Assembly (NCBI GenBank): GCA_027307165.1
Contig: DAHUXM010000020.1
Location: forward strand, 62,001 to 126,000
From: Gemmatimonadota bacterium
Lineage (GTDB): Bacteria; Gemmatimonadota; Gemmatimonadetes; Gemmatimonadales; Gemmatimonadaceae
DNA: 64,000 bases
Direction of reading: 5' to 3'
Position 1 is the stretch's first letter. Each line of letters opens with the position of its first letter. A model generated the notes under the pieces. It saw only the letters and a program-made list of their open reading frames with translations. It was not told the DNA's origin and made no database searches. Position numbers and translations under genes: made by a program. Of the stretch, positions 3,024 to 18,893 are shown piece by piece.

Positions 3024-4214
3024 ATGGCGGCTCCAGTTTCACAGAGCGAAACCGTAGAGACGGTTCGCGAAGAGGTCATAGGGTGGCGGCGCTACCTGCA
3101 TCAGCACCCTGAGCGCTCGTTTCACGAGGAGCGAACCTCCCAATGGATTGCCGACACCCTCGCTGGATTCAGCGGCCTCGAGATCACGCGACCCACTCCA
3201 ACGAGTGTCCTGGCGCGCCTCAAGGGTGCGAGTCCGGGGCCGGTGCTGGCCATCCGTGCAGACATCGACGCTCTTCCGATCGAGGAGCGCAACACCCACA
3301 GTTACATTTCCCGGAACCCGGGCACCATGCACGCGTGCGGCCACGACGGGCATACGGCGATGCTGCTCGGCGCCGTGAAAGTGCTGGTCGGCCGACGCGA
3401 TTCGCTCGCTGGCGAGGTGCGTTTCATCTTCCAGCACGCCGAGGAGCTGCATCCTGGCGGGGCAGAGGAGTTGGTGAAGGCTGGTGTGATGGACGGGGTG
3501 GATATCGTGATCGGCGCACACCTCTGGCTTCCTCTCGAGGTTGGAAAGGTCGGCGTAAAGGCCGGTGAACTCATGGCTGCCCCGGACAAGATCTGTATCA
3601 CGATTACGGGAAGCGGCGGGCACGCCGCGCTGCCGCATCAGACCGTCGATCCGATTGCCGTGTCCGCGCAGTTCATCACCAATCTGCAACACGTTGTCGC
3701 CCGTAACGTCGATCCATTGCAGCCGTCGGTGATATCGATAACGCGGATTGCCGGCGGAACCACGCACAACGTGATTCCAGGCTCGGTTGAAATGGAAGGA
3801 ACGGTACGGACTTTCGATGAGAATCTGCGTACCGAAATGCCGCGGCATATCGAGCGCATTCTCGCCGGCATCACGTCGGCGCACGGAGCGAGCTACACCT
3901 TTTCGTACGAGCGCGGATATCGGCCGGTAGTGAATGACGAGCGCGCCGCCGCACTGCTGCGTCGAGCAGTGGTTCATGCGCTTGGTGAGGAGGCGCTTAC
4001 CGAGGCCATTCCCTGCATGGGCGGCGAGGATTTTTCAGCGTACCAGCAACGTGCTCCCGGTGCGTTCTTCTTTGTCGGTGCACGCTGCGAGGCGCGAGGA
4101 ATAGTACAGCCGCATCATCACGAATGCTTCGACATCGACGAGCGCGCACTCGACTATGGAACGCGCATTTTCGTCGCCGCGGCGCTGGACTTTCTCGCGC
4201 CGTCGCACGGATGA
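3024..4214 (+). CDS. M20-family amidohydrolase / metallo-carboxypeptidase
   Basis: Cytoplasmic M20 amidohydrolase of the IAA-amino-acid hydrolase / hippuricase group, which releases free amino acids from N-acyl or peptide conjugates. The ATG at 3024 gives 396 residues, the usual family length, and starts just before the conserved helix WRRYLHQHPE. Metal-site motifs are in order: RADIDALPIEE, HACGHDGH (Cys105, His107 and His110 region), FQHAEELHPGG with the Glu pair near residue 140, the dimerisation-domain segment GGHAALPHQ, and MGGEDFSAY near the C-terminus. It lacks a signal peptide. The next gene starts on an ATGA overlap, and a symporter follows, so the operon probably couples uptake to hydrolysis of an organic-acid or amino-acid conjugate. 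Confidence 0.9.
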   Translation: MAAPVSQSETVETVREEVIGWRRYLHQHPERSFHEERTSQWIADTLAGFSGLEITRPTPTSVLARLKGASPGPVLAIRADIDALPIEERNTHSYISRNPGTMHACGHDGHTAMLLGAVKVLVGRRDSLAGEVRFIFQHAEELHPGGAEELVKAGVMDGVDIVIGAHLWLPLEVGKVGVKAGELMAAPDKICITITGSGGHAALPHQTVDPIAVSAQFITNLQHVVARNVDPLQPSVISITRIAGGTTHNVIPGSVEMEGTVRTFDENLRTEMPRHIERILAGITSAHGASYTFSYERGYRPVVNDERAAALLRRAVVHALGEEALTEAIPCMGGEDFSAYQQRAPGAFFFVGARCEARGIVQPHHHECFDIDERALDYGTRIFVAAALDFLAPSHG

Positions 4215-14384: not shown

Positions 14385-14522
14385 ACGAGATCGAAGGGAG
14401 GAAGTAGAGTCTCCGAGGTCGCCACGGCAAGGACGTACGCCTGAGGACGAACGTGGCCCTTGCCGGGCCGAGTACTTGTTCGCCAGGTGTGACCGGCGGT
14501 GTGCGGACCTAGTCTATATAGC

Positions 14523-15062
14523 ATGGAAGTGGTGGTTCCCCCAGACGCGGATGTCATCGCCTCGGTCGTGGACGGTGATCTCGACGCGTTCACGATCCTG
14601 GTTCGGCGGTATCGGGACCTGTGCTTCCGCTTTGCGCTGCGAATGCTCGGAAACCGGGACGACGCCGAAGAGGCTCTACAGGACGCATTTGTCCGTGCCT
14701 TCCGTGCGCTCGCAGCGTGCCGAAATAGAGACAGGTTCGGGGCATGGCTGTATCAGATTCTGGTAAACGAGTGCCGTACGCGAGCTACTCGTACGGCACG
14801 TCGCGACCGGTATTTCGTGGATGTGGCTCCAGACCTCATCGATCCTGCTTCGCGCGAAGACTCGGCGATCGGTGAGGAGATCGAATACGCCCTCGCGCAA
14901 CTCGTTCCCGAGCAGCGCGAGGTATTTCTCCTCAGGTACGTCGAGGAGCTCGGTTACGAAGAAATAGCGGAAATCACCGGCGTCGGTGTCTCGGCGCTCA
15001 AAATGCGAGCCAAACGAGGTTGCGAGCGGCTTCGTGAGTTGCTCGAGGGAGTGGTACGGTGA
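14523..15062 (+). CDS. ECF RNA polymerase sigma factor
   Basis: A 179-residue extracytoplasmic-function sigma factor. Region 2 is AFTILVRRYRDLCFRFALRMLGNRDDAEEALQDAF, with the -10-binding segment RFGAWLYQILVNECR. Region 4 is LPEQ-like VPEQREVFLLRYVEELGYEEIAEITG followed by SALKMRAKRG, the -35-recognition helix. No C-terminal SnoaL or other extension is present. Its stop overlaps the GTG of the anti-sigma gene by four bases, the usual arrangement for an ECF/anti-sigma pair. A TATATA stretch eight bases before the ATG may be part of a promoter, in which case the leader would be very short. Confidence 0.92.
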   Translation: MEVVVPPDADVIASVVDGDLDAFTILVRRYRDLCFRFALRMLGNRDDAEEALQDAFVRAFRALAACRNRDRFGAWLYQILVNECRTRATRTARRDRYFVDVAPDLIDPASREDSAIGEEIEYALAQLVPEQREVFLLRYVEELGYEEIAEITGVGVSALKMRAKRGCERLRELLEGVVR

Positions 15063-15739
15063 AAATCCATTCTGATATGGAACACGAAGGCGACGAGCCG
15101 GGCCGCGAGGATGCGGACTTTGCACGCCAGCTGGGGTCCATTCTGCGCACGGCGGAGAGCCCGCGGCCCGGTTTTGAAGAGCGTGTCAGAGCCGCCATTC
15201 AAACCTCGCAGAGCGCGCAAGCCGCGCCCAGCGCAGCCGCGGTGCTCCGACTTCAGCCGCGCGCGGCCGGCATTACGGCATGGCGTCGACGGCGTTCGGT
15301 CACGCTTCCACCGGCCGGCTGGGGCGCTCTCGCCGCTGGTTTTGCAGCGCTTGTCAGTCTCGGGACGCTCGCGGTAGCCCGGACTGGCGAGACGATGCAG
15401 CGGTCGCCTGACGGTACAAATGGTGTTGTGGCCCAGACCACACGTCAGGCTGTGGCGTCACCGTCTCATGACACCGTCTACGTGGTACGATTCGTTCTCA
15501 CGGATGCCCAGGCGCGGACTGTAAGCCTCGTGGGCGACTTCAACGCGTGGGCGAGACGGGCGACCCCGTTGGTCGCGGTCAAGCCCGGCGTCTGGAGTGC
15601 TCAGGTGGCACTCCCCGCAGGGCGACACGAGTACGCCTTCGTGGTCGACGGCAAGCACTGGGTTGCTGATCCTTCCTCGGAACGCCTCGCTGACGATTTC
15701 GACACCCCGAGTTCCGTCGTAACCGTAGGAAGCGATTGA
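15059..15739 (+). CDS. Putative membrane anti-sigma factor with extracytoplasmic CBM48 glycogen-binding domain
   Basis: A 226-residue protein overlapping the sigma gene. Residues 1-85 are a charged cytoplasmic region with EDADFARQLGSILR and FEERVRAAI helices but without a zinc HxxxCxxC motif. A transmembrane helix spans about 87-107 (WGALAAGFAALVSLG). After a linker, residues about 139-225 form a CBM48/AMPK-beta-like fold: TVSLVGDFNAW with Trp164, GVWSAQVALPAGRHEYAFVV, then DGKHWVADP with Trp201. These two Trp are the equivalents of the sugar-stacking residues in AMPK-beta. Anti-sigma activity is inferred from the overlap and topology. A ligand-gated release of the sigma factor, analogous to clostridial RsgI proteins with CBMs, is a plausible model. 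Confidence 0.78.
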   Translation: MKIHSDMEHEGDEPGREDADFARQLGSILRTAESPRPGFEERVRAAIQTSQSAQAAPSAAAVLRLQPRAAGITAWRRRRSVTLPPAGWGALAAGFAALVSLGTLAVARTGETMQRSPDGTNGVVAQTTRQAVASPSHDTVYVVRFVLTDAQARTVSLVGDFNAWARRATPLVAVKPGVWSAQVALPAGRHEYAFVVDGKHWVADPSSERLADDFDTPSSVVTVGSD

Positions 15740-15764
15740 TCAGCCAGAATAGCGCCAGTATCGC

Positions 15765-16943
15765 GTGATCATAGCGGCAATTATCAAGAACTTCCATTTG
15801 ACGTCTGGGCGCGTCAGTTGGAGTATTCTTCTCGCCGCCGGATTGGCAGCTGGATCGAGCGTTCCCGCAGTCGCGACGGCTCAACGGGTTGTCTCCTCCC
15901 TGGACGTGCAGGAGACACAGCTTCGATACGCCGATTCCCTGAATGCAACCGCAACTGGTCTCACGCCATCGTTCCGGGCCGGTTGGGATAATGCCATCGT
16001 GTCCGCGTCGGGGACCTTTGCGCAGCTGGCCCGAGCGTGGAGTGCCAACGGATCAGTCGGCGCATCGGCGTTCACGCCAGCGGTCGGCGCATTCTCGGCC
16101 GAGCTGGCAGCAACGTTGGGCGGGAGCGAGCATCAGGACGGCAACCGGACCGGTGCCGCGATCGGGATGGCTCGCCTGCATCTGGATGCGGCGGGCCTCG
16201 GCGCGTGGGTTGGCGCGGGCGGCGGTACGACCTCGGACGGTTCGCGCTGGCGCAGCGTGCGCGAGGGCGAGGCGGGCCTCTGGTATGCGAATGGACCGGT
16301 CAACGCGACGCTTACCGTACAACCGACCGCCGTTGACGATTCCCTTCGCTACACGGACATGGCCGCGGAAGGACAGTGGCGAGTCGGGATGCTCGACTTG
16401 GGAGCGGTCGCCGTTACGCGCGCGGGCTCGCATCTCCCGGCGCTCGGCACGGGGGCTCGTGCGTGGGGCAGCGTCAGTGCAGTTGCATGGCTGTTGCCGC
16501 GCGTCGCATTGCTGGCCAGCGCCGGTACCTACCCGGTGGATTACACGCAGGGCTTTCCCGGCGGGCGATTCGTGTCGGCGGGCGTGCGCATTTCCCTGAC
16601 GCGCAGTGCGCGACAGGTTCCACTGATGGTGAAGCTCAAACCTGTGGCGACGGCAGCCGGTGTAGCCGAGCTCCAGTTGGCGGCTGGCGCCGGCGGACGA
16701 CGGATCCTCCGGCTCCGGGTACCGGGGGCTCGCACCGTGGAAGTGAACGGCGATTTCACCGGCTGGGCGCCGCGCACGTTGAGCCGTGGAGCCGACGGCT
16801 GGTATTCGTTCGAGACGCCTCTCTCGCCGGGCATCTATCAGATGAATGTCCGTGTGGACGGGGGCAAGTGGCTTCCACCGCCGTCGCTGACGACTGTAAC
16901 GGACGAGTTTGGCGGACTGGCGGCCGTTCTGATTGTACCATGA
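15765..16943 (+). CDS. Secreted protein with beta-rich body and C-terminal CBM48 domain
   Basis: A 392-residue protein from GTG 15765, 25 bases after the anti-sigma gene. The signal peptide ends near ATAQ at residue 40. Residues about 45-300 consist of repeated amphipathic strands (SFRAGWDNAIVSASGTF, AAIGMARLHLDAAGLGAWVGAGGG, VRISLTRSARQVPLMV), which suggests an outer-membrane barrel or beta-sandwich. The last 80 residues are a second CBM48 domain: TVEVNGDFTGWAP, GWYSFETPLSPGIYQMNVRVD and GGKWLPPP, keeping both sugar-stacking Trp positions (about 334 and 369). The shared domain and adjacency suggest it is a regulon member or co-sensor of the sigma switch. Confidence 0.78.
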   Translation: MIIAAIIKNFHLTSGRVSWSILLAAGLAAGSSVPAVATAQRVVSSLDVQETQLRYADSLNATATGLTPSFRAGWDNAIVSASGTFAQLARAWSANGSVGASAFTPAVGAFSAELAATLGGSEHQDGNRTGAAIGMARLHLDAAGLGAWVGAGGGTTSDGSRWRSVREGEAGLWYANGPVNATLTVQPTAVDDSLRYTDMAAEGQWRVGMLDLGAVAVTRAGSHLPALGTGARAWGSVSAVAWLLPRVALLASAGTYPVDYTQGFPGGRFVSAGVRISLTRSARQVPLMVKLKPVATAAGVAELQLAAGAGGRRILRLRVPGARTVEVNGDFTGWAPRTLSRGADGWYSFETPLSPGIYQMNVRVDGGKWLPPPSLTTVTDEFGGLAAVLIVP

Positions 16944-17106
16944 CCACTTCGATCACGTCATGCAGCTCGTCACACTCTCGTTGCAATTCGGATGTGACCG
17001 GACCGGGTCAGCGTGCAGTCTAACCGAGTGAAGGTCGATATCAGCGGCGAGGCAGAGTGCTTCATCAGCTGATGGGCCAACGCTCCTGTTTCCCAAGAGT
17101 CCTGCG

Positions 17107-17862
17107 ATGAGAATGCGTTCAGTCACGACAGTGAGCAACAGCATCATTGCACTCGTGTTTCTTGCGAGCTCTGCAATCGCAACTGCACAGAGCAGCGCGG
17201 TTGACCCGTCAGCGCGACTCTCGGCCGTGCTGCCGGCGGATGTCGCCCAGCACGTGCTGGCAGTGATAAGTGATGCGCGCTCGGACAATCTGCCATCCGA
17301 CGCAGTGCTGAACCGGTCGCTCAAATTTGCGGCACGCGGCGTTGCGGCACCGGACATCGCACGTGCAGCGGACGAACAGCTTGCCCGCATGCGTGCAGCG
17401 AGAGAAGCGCTCCGGACGGCACGCAGTGCTCAACCCACCGGCGACGAGATAGAGGCTGGCGCCGAGGCTTTGCGTGAAGGTGTGAGCGGTCCCGACGTTT
17501 CCAGGCTCGCGCGGAGTGCGCCGAGTGGACGCTCTCTTGCTGTACCGCTGTATGTAATTGGAAGCCTGGTGAGTCGCGGTCTGCCGTCCGATCAGGCGTT
17601 GCAGCGAGTTCAGAGCAAGCTCGCGGCGCGCGCGTCCGACGCCGACATCGAGTCGTCCGGACGCGATAATGACGTAGCGTCAGAGAATCATTCGAACGAG
17701 GGTCGCGGGAAAGGTGTTGGCGGCGGTCGCGGGAGCGAGGCAGGAACGGGCGCTGCTGCGCATGGACCGCCTGCGGGCGTTCCTGGTAATGCAGGTACTC
17801 ACGGACGAGCGAGCGGCGCGACGCACGGTAATCCGCCGACGACTGGCAAGGGTCGTCCGTGA
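17107..17862 (+). CDS. Secreted hypothetical protein with Gly/Asn/His-rich tail
   Basis: A 251-residue protein with a clear signal peptide (FLASSAIATAQS). Residues 35-190 are helical and Ala/Arg/Asp-rich with two similar segments, each resembling a short helix pair (LPSDAVLNRSLKFAARGVAAPDIARAAD and LPSDQALQRVQSKLAARASDADIE). The last 60 residues are low-complexity Gly/Ala/His/Asn and probably disordered. I recognise no named family. It sits between the CBM48 gene and a DUF4382 lipoprotein on the same strand. Confidence 0.7.
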   Translation: MRMRSVTTVSNSIIALVFLASSAIATAQSSAVDPSARLSAVLPADVAQHVLAVISDARSDNLPSDAVLNRSLKFAARGVAAPDIARAADEQLARMRAAREALRTARSAQPTGDEIEAGAEALREGVSGPDVSRLARSAPSGRSLAVPLYVIGSLVSRGLPSDQALQRVQSKLAARASDADIESSGRDNDVASENHSNEGRGKGVGGGRGSEAGTGAAAHGPPAGVPGNAGTHGRASGATHGNPPTTGKGRP

Positions 17863-17942
17863 TGATGGCAGGAACGGGCGCTGATCGTCGCGCTCGCGCG
17901 GGCTTTTGCGAAAACTTTCAACCTTTCTGGAGCAAAGAATCT

Positions 17943-18893
17943 ATGAGTCGTCACATTACTTCCCACTCTGTCGTCGCACTCGCGTTGTGTGCTACTACAG
18001 CTCTTGCAGCGTGCAGCTCCGGTTCGGACAGTGGCATGTCGCCATCCACGTCAGGATCGGTTTCCATTGCACTGACCGATGCTCCATTCCCCTTTGATTC
18101 AGTAGCACGCGCCGATCTCTTCGTCGTGCGGATCGATGGCAGGCTTGCCGACGTGGACTCGGCGGATGCGGACAGCGGGAAGGATGATGACTCCCACACC
18201 AACACCGATCCATCGCACGGTTGGGTAACACTCGCAACGCCAAACCAGACCTTCAATCTTCTCGATCTGCAGGGCGGGAAGTCGGTCAACCTTGCACAGC
18301 CCACGTTGCCGACGGGAACGTATCGCGGCTTCCGGCTCGTGCTCGACGTCGACAAGTCCTCGATAACTCTCAAGAATGGAACGGTTCTGACGGGCGCGAA
18401 CGGTGGAATCAAATTCCCGGGCGCCGGACGGAGCGGGATCAAGATCAATCTTGCACGGCCGTTTTCTGTCGTGGGCGGCAAGTCGCAGATGCTCATCGAC
18501 TTCGATCTGGGCCGCAGCTTCGTCATGCGTGGCAACAGCATCGGCAAGAACGGTCTGATCTTCAAGCCCGTGATTCGCGCGACTGCAGTCGAGGAGACCG
18601 GTGGAATCTCAGGAACGATTCACGATTCGACGGCTACAGGAACGCCAGCCGCGCATGCGTCCGTGGAGATTCTCAAGGCGGGCACCGCCCTCACGGATAC
18701 GGTGTCGGCCAACGTGGTTGCGACGACCACCTCTGATGCGAACGGCGTGTACTCGGCGATGTGGCTGCAGCCTGGAACCTACGCAGTACGCGCGACACCG
18801 CCGACTGGCTCGTTGAACCATCCCGCGCTCGTTCCGACTGTGACGGTGACATCGGGCAAGACGATCAGCGGTGTCGATGTAGTATTGCCGTAA
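17943..18893 (+). CDS. DUF4382 lipoprotein
   Basis: A 316-residue exported lipoprotein from ATG 17943 with lipobox ALAACS (Cys at about residue 24). Residues about 38-205 are the DUF4382 domain: GSVSIALTDAPFPFDSVARADLFVVRID, then TFNLLDLQGGKSVNL and LPTGTYRGFRLVLD, ending in FKPVIRATA. The C-terminal 85 residues form a carboxypeptidase-regulatory-like beta-sandwich (GTIHDSTATGTPAAHASVEIL, DANGVYSAMWLQPGTYAVRA). Such proteins are surface- or periplasm-exposed with unknown ligands. An Asp/Ser/His-rich insert (SADADSGKDDDSHTNTD) could bind a cation. A perfect 40-base palindrome follows the stop. Confidence 0.85.
   Translation: MSRHITSHSVVALALCATTALAACSSGSDSGMSPSTSGSVSIALTDAPFPFDSVARADLFVVRIDGRLADVDSADADSGKDDDSHTNTDPSHGWVTLATPNQTFNLLDLQGGKSVNLAQPTLPTGTYRGFRLVLDVDKSSITLKNGTVLTGANGGIKFPGAGRSGIKINLARPFSVVGGKSQMLIDFDLGRSFVMRGNSIGKNGLIFKPVIRATAVEETGGISGTIHDSTATGTPAAHASVEILKAGTALTDTVSANVVATTTSDANGVYSAMWLQPGTYAVRATPPTGSLNHPALVPTVTVTSGKTISGVDVVLP

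Follow-up and report, generated by a model that had tools for sequence, protein, structure and literature searches.

A conserved ECF sigma factor and putative anti-sigma factor with a periplasmic CBM48 domain, encoded beside a predicted CBM48-bearing barrel protein in Gemmatimonadota

Genes and predicted proteins of the locus

The window, i.e., the whole 64 kb stretch of DNA analysed here, belongs to contig C35 (genome size 3.7 Mb), and the three genes that a preliminary description had recognized at 14523-16943 are all present there on the plus strand, together with two genes further downstream on the same strand (17107-17862 and 17859-18893) that it had missed. The first gene (14523..15062) encodes an ECF sigma factor of 179 aa, for which a Pfam scan returned Sigma70_r2 (1.5e-15) and Sigma70_r4_2 (4e-15), both above the cut-off; a short protein with regions 2 and 4 only, it is a normal two-domain factor. 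It overlaps by 4 nt the gene of a 226-aa putative anti-sigma factor (15059..15739), composed of an N-terminal cytoplasmic region, a single transmembrane helix and an extracytoplasmic CBM48 domain, and the coordinates, Pfam and hydropathy all bear out the earlier report of a sigma gene overlapping that of a one-helix CBM48 membrane protein. The helix (residues 88-107, 15320..15379) was assigned by hydropathy and positive-inside bias. Nearly all of 38 homologues have a single helix preceded by more Lys/Arg residues than follow it, which places the CBM48 domain outside the cytoplasm and supports the outward orientation proposed for it.

CBM48 is known mainly from starch/glycogen enzymes and AMPK. 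In the small CBM48 protein the domain (15470..15736) was recognized by both AMPK1_CBM (1.1e-9) and CBM_48 (1.3e-7), above the curated cut-off in each case (38.8 bits vs 26.8 for PF16561 and 32.2 vs 22.4 for PF02922). A search of the family profile against the PDB found the glycogen-binding domain of AMPK beta-1 (1z0n, 1.3e-13) as well as other starch/glycogen proteins. Trp164 and Trp201 both fall within the domain.

Residues 1-84 (15059..15310) form a cytoplasmic, anti-sigma-like region that is devoid of zinc ligands and had no Pfam match. The features of class I anti-sigma factors are found all the same in the surrounding architecture, as the gene adjoins an ECF sigma gene and the protein has one transmembrane helix and an internal N-terminus; relatives of the protein, moreover, begin with YLDGE-like sequences. 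One of them (L082) keeps the zinc motif HIKECDEC (Hx3Cx2C), another (L103) shows a weak zf-HC2 match (0.0027, below the cut-off), and zinc ligands are absent from approximately 44% of class I anti-sigma domains (PMC7406223), for which reasons the N-terminus resembles a class I domain of the ordinary sort in which the zinc has been lost. RseA, RskA and RsiW likewise carry a small N-terminal domain beside an ECF sigma factor, with zinc ligands being optional (PMC7406223). The small CBM48 protein can most likely be placed among the class I anti-sigma factors without zinc, and it would inhibit the sigma factor encoded next to it. The proposal that the missing zinc motif marks a new type of anti-sigma factor was dropped, given how many class I domains lack the ligands. 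In the metagenome-assembled genome that contains L082, the anti-sigma frame (3922-4200) is interrupted by a stop codon upstream of HIKECDEC.

The large CBM48 protein (15765..16943) had been described as secreted and ending in a second CBM48 domain. The terminal CBM48 stood, since AMPK1_CBM matches near the C-terminus (2.4e-6, barely above the cut-off), whereas "secreted" did not: AlphaFold2, VIA-align and Pfam together point to an outer-membrane protein with a signal peptide, a closed transmembrane barrel of 14 strands (residues 43-277) and a periplasmic C-terminal CBM48 domain (residues 302-391). The AlphaFold2 model, made from 14 sequences with a mean pLDDT of 81 (approximately 90 for the barrel, with most blocks at 84-97), is laid out as a signal helix, the 14 strands and the CBM48 domain, and contains no plug. 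Foldseek and VIA-align matched the protein to porins, the best being CymA (rmsd 3.3 over 236 aligned residues) and OmpG, both with Z 20 and both 14-stranded as well, although they share only 6-8% identity with it and neither has a C-terminal CBM48. As CymA and OmpG tie, the substrate of the barrel cannot be read from the match. Barrels with an even number of strands have their N- and C-termini on the periplasmic side. With 14 strands, the CBM48 domain of the modelled barrel protein and that of the anti-sigma candidate should therefore both reside in the same periplasm.

The two genes further downstream encode a secreted, all-helical conserved protein (17107..17862), here termed DUF1, and a DUF4382 plus CarboxypepD_reg protein (17859..18893; Pfam 2e-21). 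DUF1, found in nearly all of the relatives' loci, was modelled by AlphaFold2 with a core pLDDT of 91-98, and a Foldseek search against the PDB gave no match with E <= 0.001, which does not by itself prove a new fold. The DUF4382 protein probably starts at 17943, with a lipoprotein signal ending in ALAAC, and its gene recurs beside the system, often divergently and with a motif copy of its own (L049, L056, and L057).

Conservation and co-variation of the gene set

A homologue was found in 48 of 60 relatives, and the family is present in 197 of 298 Gemmatimonadota genomes. The sigma gene adjoins that of the small CBM48 protein in 39 of 40 neighbourhoods, the one exception (L071) having been fetched around a large-CBM48 match and lacking a small CBM48 partner. 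Among further full-length loci the sigma gene is present in 28 of 30, and the other two start at contig ends. A chance association of the two genes is rejected by these counts, and the pairing of a sigma with an anti-sigma factor, as first suggested, gains support from the gene overlap, from the two genes lying side by side in all the complete small-CBM48 loci seen and from the class I features of the relatives.

DUF1 and the large CBM48 gene are almost always present across the 40 neighbourhoods, and the three families of the system co-vary (Mantel r 0.64-0.76). The usual order in relatives is sigma, small CBM48 protein, DUF1 and large CBM48 protein; the window departs from it in that DUF1 follows the large CBM48 gene and is itself followed by DUF4382. 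Rearranged operons headed by the barrel gene occur in L041, L047, L063, and L066. The barrel gene was not found in L062, L082, L085, and L099, and some distant loci consist of a sigma gene, a CBM48 protein gene and a DUF1-like gene with no barrel gene found. Where a genome has paralogues, their closest relatives lie elsewhere. The source genome holds a second complete copy of the system (L035, 6268-9302, contig C37) with its own motif at C37:62235, and the window and C37 paralogues are further from each other than from their respective orthologues in G002.

The named relatives belong to the Gemmatimonadetes. The gene-order search across Gemmatimonadota that the preliminary description had called for found the order conserved, and it extends to other phyla: among records of the GTDB species collection, the combination turned up under the labels Eisenbacteria, Krumholzibacteriota, Bipolaricaulota, and Nitrospira/Nitrospirae, as well as under Myxococcales, Delta- and other Proteobacteria labels, and the named strain Salinivenus lutea carries it too. 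Since the records outside Gemmatimonadota are mostly MAGs, single taxon labels may be wrong. The remaining CBM48 proteins recovered by the scan of this collection had no sigma gene directly adjoining. A search of plasmid records gave no match.

Promoter motif and candidate regulon

A predicted autoregulatory promoter motif, TGTGACC...TAGTCTA, lies at 14488..14516 on the plus strand, approximately 6 nt ahead of the start codon of the sigma gene, and occupies the same place in most relatives, so that the shared motif whose existence had been raised as a check was indeed found at the head of the operon. A second copy (16993..17022, plus strand) is intergenic and precedes the helical-protein/DUF4382 unit. 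The motif type before the sigma gene and this second transcription unit can be written as TGTGAC-N15/16-GGGTCTA; upstream of sigma genes in general it reads GTGAC-N18-GTCTW/GGGTNT, with the spacing of 18 seen 12 times as against 0.05 in shuffles. The pattern GTGAC-N18/19-GTCTW has exactly two sites in the 64 kb window, those before the sigma gene and the DUF1/DUF4382 unit, where 0.31 would be expected, and a looser scan across loci totalling approximately 670 kb detected 46 sites compared with 10 expected, mostly before sigma genes. Matches to a promoter pattern with a wrong offset, used as control, stayed at chance level. In four genomes, TGTGAC-N16/17-GGGTTAT occurs exactly once per genome, each time at the sigma gene.

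The motif follows the transcription units also where the gene order differs. In L041, L047, and L063, where the large CBM48 (barrel) gene leads the operon, it stands ahead of that gene; in the window, L036, and L042 it precedes DUF1, and in L056 and L057 a divergent DUF4382 gene. The copy ahead of the second unit is found in G002 as well, and in G009 before the equivalent gene. Because the predicted -10 element ends approximately 6 nt before its start codon, the sigma mRNA is probably leaderless, and a similar closeness is seen in several relatives. Upstream of the sigma genes of L044, L053, L055, L068, and L069, the usual motif is replaced by GTAAC/GTGAC...CGTTACC; this subgroup roughly corresponds to a sigma clade of its own, and a change of sigma factor may have brought a change of promoter specificity with it.

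In five genomes (G018, G019, G033, G041, and G042) a stricter pattern matched 33 sites, compared with 7 for the reversed control. A TonB Plug domain lies downstream (within 1.2 kb on the same strand) of 10 of the 28 non-sigma sites in the five genomes, whereas 0.13 would be expected from the 199 Plug domains (p 4e-16), and none of 23 control sites with wrong spacing is followed by one. These regulon statistics postdate the recognition of the motif, but the Plug counts are independent of it. Most of the receptors scanned combine CarboxypepD_reg and Plug according to Pfam, the make-up of SusC-type receptors, and other genes preceded by the motif encode GH127, an OMP_b-brl_4 protein, DUF4382, a PEP-CTERM protein and a signal peptidase I. 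At one of these sites (L227, G019 C3:302205) the motif stands before a GH127 arabinofuranosidase gene, and a TonB Plug domain follows approximately 3.3 kb further downstream. In the source genome, which has 22 TonB receptors, no enrichment of the motif was seen outside the loci of the system itself (17 matches vs 15 for the reversed control), and we therefore claim no wider regulon there. From the placement of these sites, the sigma factor appears to control its own operon and, in relatives with larger genomes, many TonB-dependent receptors.

Possible signal, alternative readings and known systems

As the preliminary description had noted, the outer CBM48 domain of the window protein has both tryptophans. 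Trp164 is kept in all 38 relatives and the position of Trp201 is Trp in 26, being lost in the other 12; position 218 is Asn in 23 of them and Ser in the window protein, while the equivalent of AMPK Lys126 is mostly Ala, as it is in the window. The positions compared are the equivalents of sugar-contact residues of AMPK beta. FNxW is a hallmark of CBM48 in sugar binders and non-binders alike, and the invariance of Trp164, which falls within it, is thus weak evidence for binding. Sugar sensing by the CBM48 domains is accordingly a predicted function.

Starting from the gene set, topology, domain identities, co-variation and motif placement, all established by computation, we infer sequestration, proteolytic release and a ligand. 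The N-terminus of the small CBM48 protein would hold the ECF sigma factor at the inner membrane, and the signal would most likely be a periplasmic glucan or oligosaccharide, perhaps let in by the barrel and bound by both CBM48 domains. Ligand binding, as in RsgI and FecR-type systems, would then open the anti-sigma factor to regulated proteolysis, and the sigma factor would be set free. As the promoter sites suggest, it would transcribe its own operon and the unit of helical-protein and DUF4382 genes; in larger genomes its targets would also include TonB-dependent receptors, mostly of SusC type, along with some CAZyme and envelope genes. The predicted arrangement is that of a soil-type bacterium with an inner-membrane brake and an outer-membrane pore, each having a starch/glycogen-binding-type domain in the periplasm. 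We regard a glycan-acquisition cell-surface-signalling sigma/anti-sigma system, with CBM48 as the predicted sensor, as moderately likely. A more far-reaching version, in which one and the same periplasmic glucan is read by the matched CBM48 domains of pore and anti-sigma factor, the helical protein serving as intermediary, forming a new trans-envelope class in several phyla, is put forward only tentatively and is rather unlikely.

Against the glycan model we counted the mostly alanine Lys126 equivalent, the 12 relatives without Trp201, the lack of motif enrichment in the source genome, the anti-sigma region without a Pfam match and the loci in which no barrel gene was found. Part of this would suit its main rival, a protein-contact device in which the CBM48 domain of the barrel touches that of the anti-sigma factor, directly or via the helical protein, and so signals the state of the barrel without any sugar, as FecA-type receptors do to FecR. 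In its favour are two CBM48 domains in one compartment that are co-inherited and co-vary, as well as the replacement of Lys126 and the loss of Trp201 from about one relative in three; yet both tryptophans are largely kept (38/38 and 26/38), the sites before SusC-type receptors and the GH127 enzyme point to glycans, and the barrel is seemingly absent from some loci, so that we find this reading doubtful. Because most targets are outer-membrane or exported proteins, one of them a signal peptidase I, the system might alternatively sense faulty outer-membrane protein assembly in the manner of RpoE/RseA, with outer-membrane proteins generally as its regulon. However, receptors dominate, no chaperone, BAM or protease target occurs among the sites examined, and the sensor is CBM48 rather than a PDZ/RseB-type arrangement, which renders envelope stress improbable. 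That the CBM48 protein is a co-transcribed membrane accessory instead of an anti-sigma factor would agree with the window N-terminus lacking a recognised anti-sigma domain, but it sits poorly with the overlapping genes, the adjacency found in each complete small-CBM48 locus, and the YLDGE and Hx3Cx2C features of relatives, and we consider it highly improbable.

In its working principle the proposed glycan-sensing system resembles RsgI of Clostridium thermocellum, as had been suggested: RsgI also has a cytoplasmic sigma-binding part, one membrane helix and an outward carbohydrate-binding module, its gene overlaps that of the sigma factor, and the system regulates itself as well as carbohydrate genes (PMC4711584). 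In contrast, its partner SigI is not an ECF factor and its modules are CBM3, PA14 or GH10 on a Gram-positive surface, whereas here CBM48 lies in the periplasm and is joined by an outer-membrane partner and a helical protein; Pfam scans, moreover, found no RsgI N-terminal domain. With FecI-FecR-FecA and the Bacteroidetes ECF/anti-sigma-SusC systems it shares an ECF sigma factor, an inner-membrane anti-sigma factor, an outer-membrane partner and control of TonB-dependent receptors, but its operon has no signalling TonB receptor, its barrel is plug-less and CBM48 takes the place of the STN/FecR contact, with no FecR domain matched by Pfam. The system thus works like RsgI and FecIRA yet belongs to neither family by definition. 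The CBM48 of AMPK beta and starch enzymes has the domain profile and the Trp pair in common with that described here, but is cytoplasmic or enzyme-attached, whereas here the domain lies in the periplasm as part of signalling and porin-like proteins. In the literature searched, which included few subscription papers and had the 2021 ECF reclassification outside its scope, we found no description of a CBM48 anti-sigma factor, nor of CBM48 as the extracytoplasmic domain of class I anti-sigma proteins; an ECF group annotation may exist.

To the best of our knowledge, the sigma factors of Gemmatimonadota are almost unstudied. If the glycan-sensing reading is true, CBM48 would serve as a sensor of a sigma system on both membranes in several phyla, which would give Gemmatimonadota a signalling route, and the helical protein and DUF4382, two families without a role, would gain a probable one. 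The controlled genes would moreover be predictable, and the promoter motif makes the regulon directly testable.
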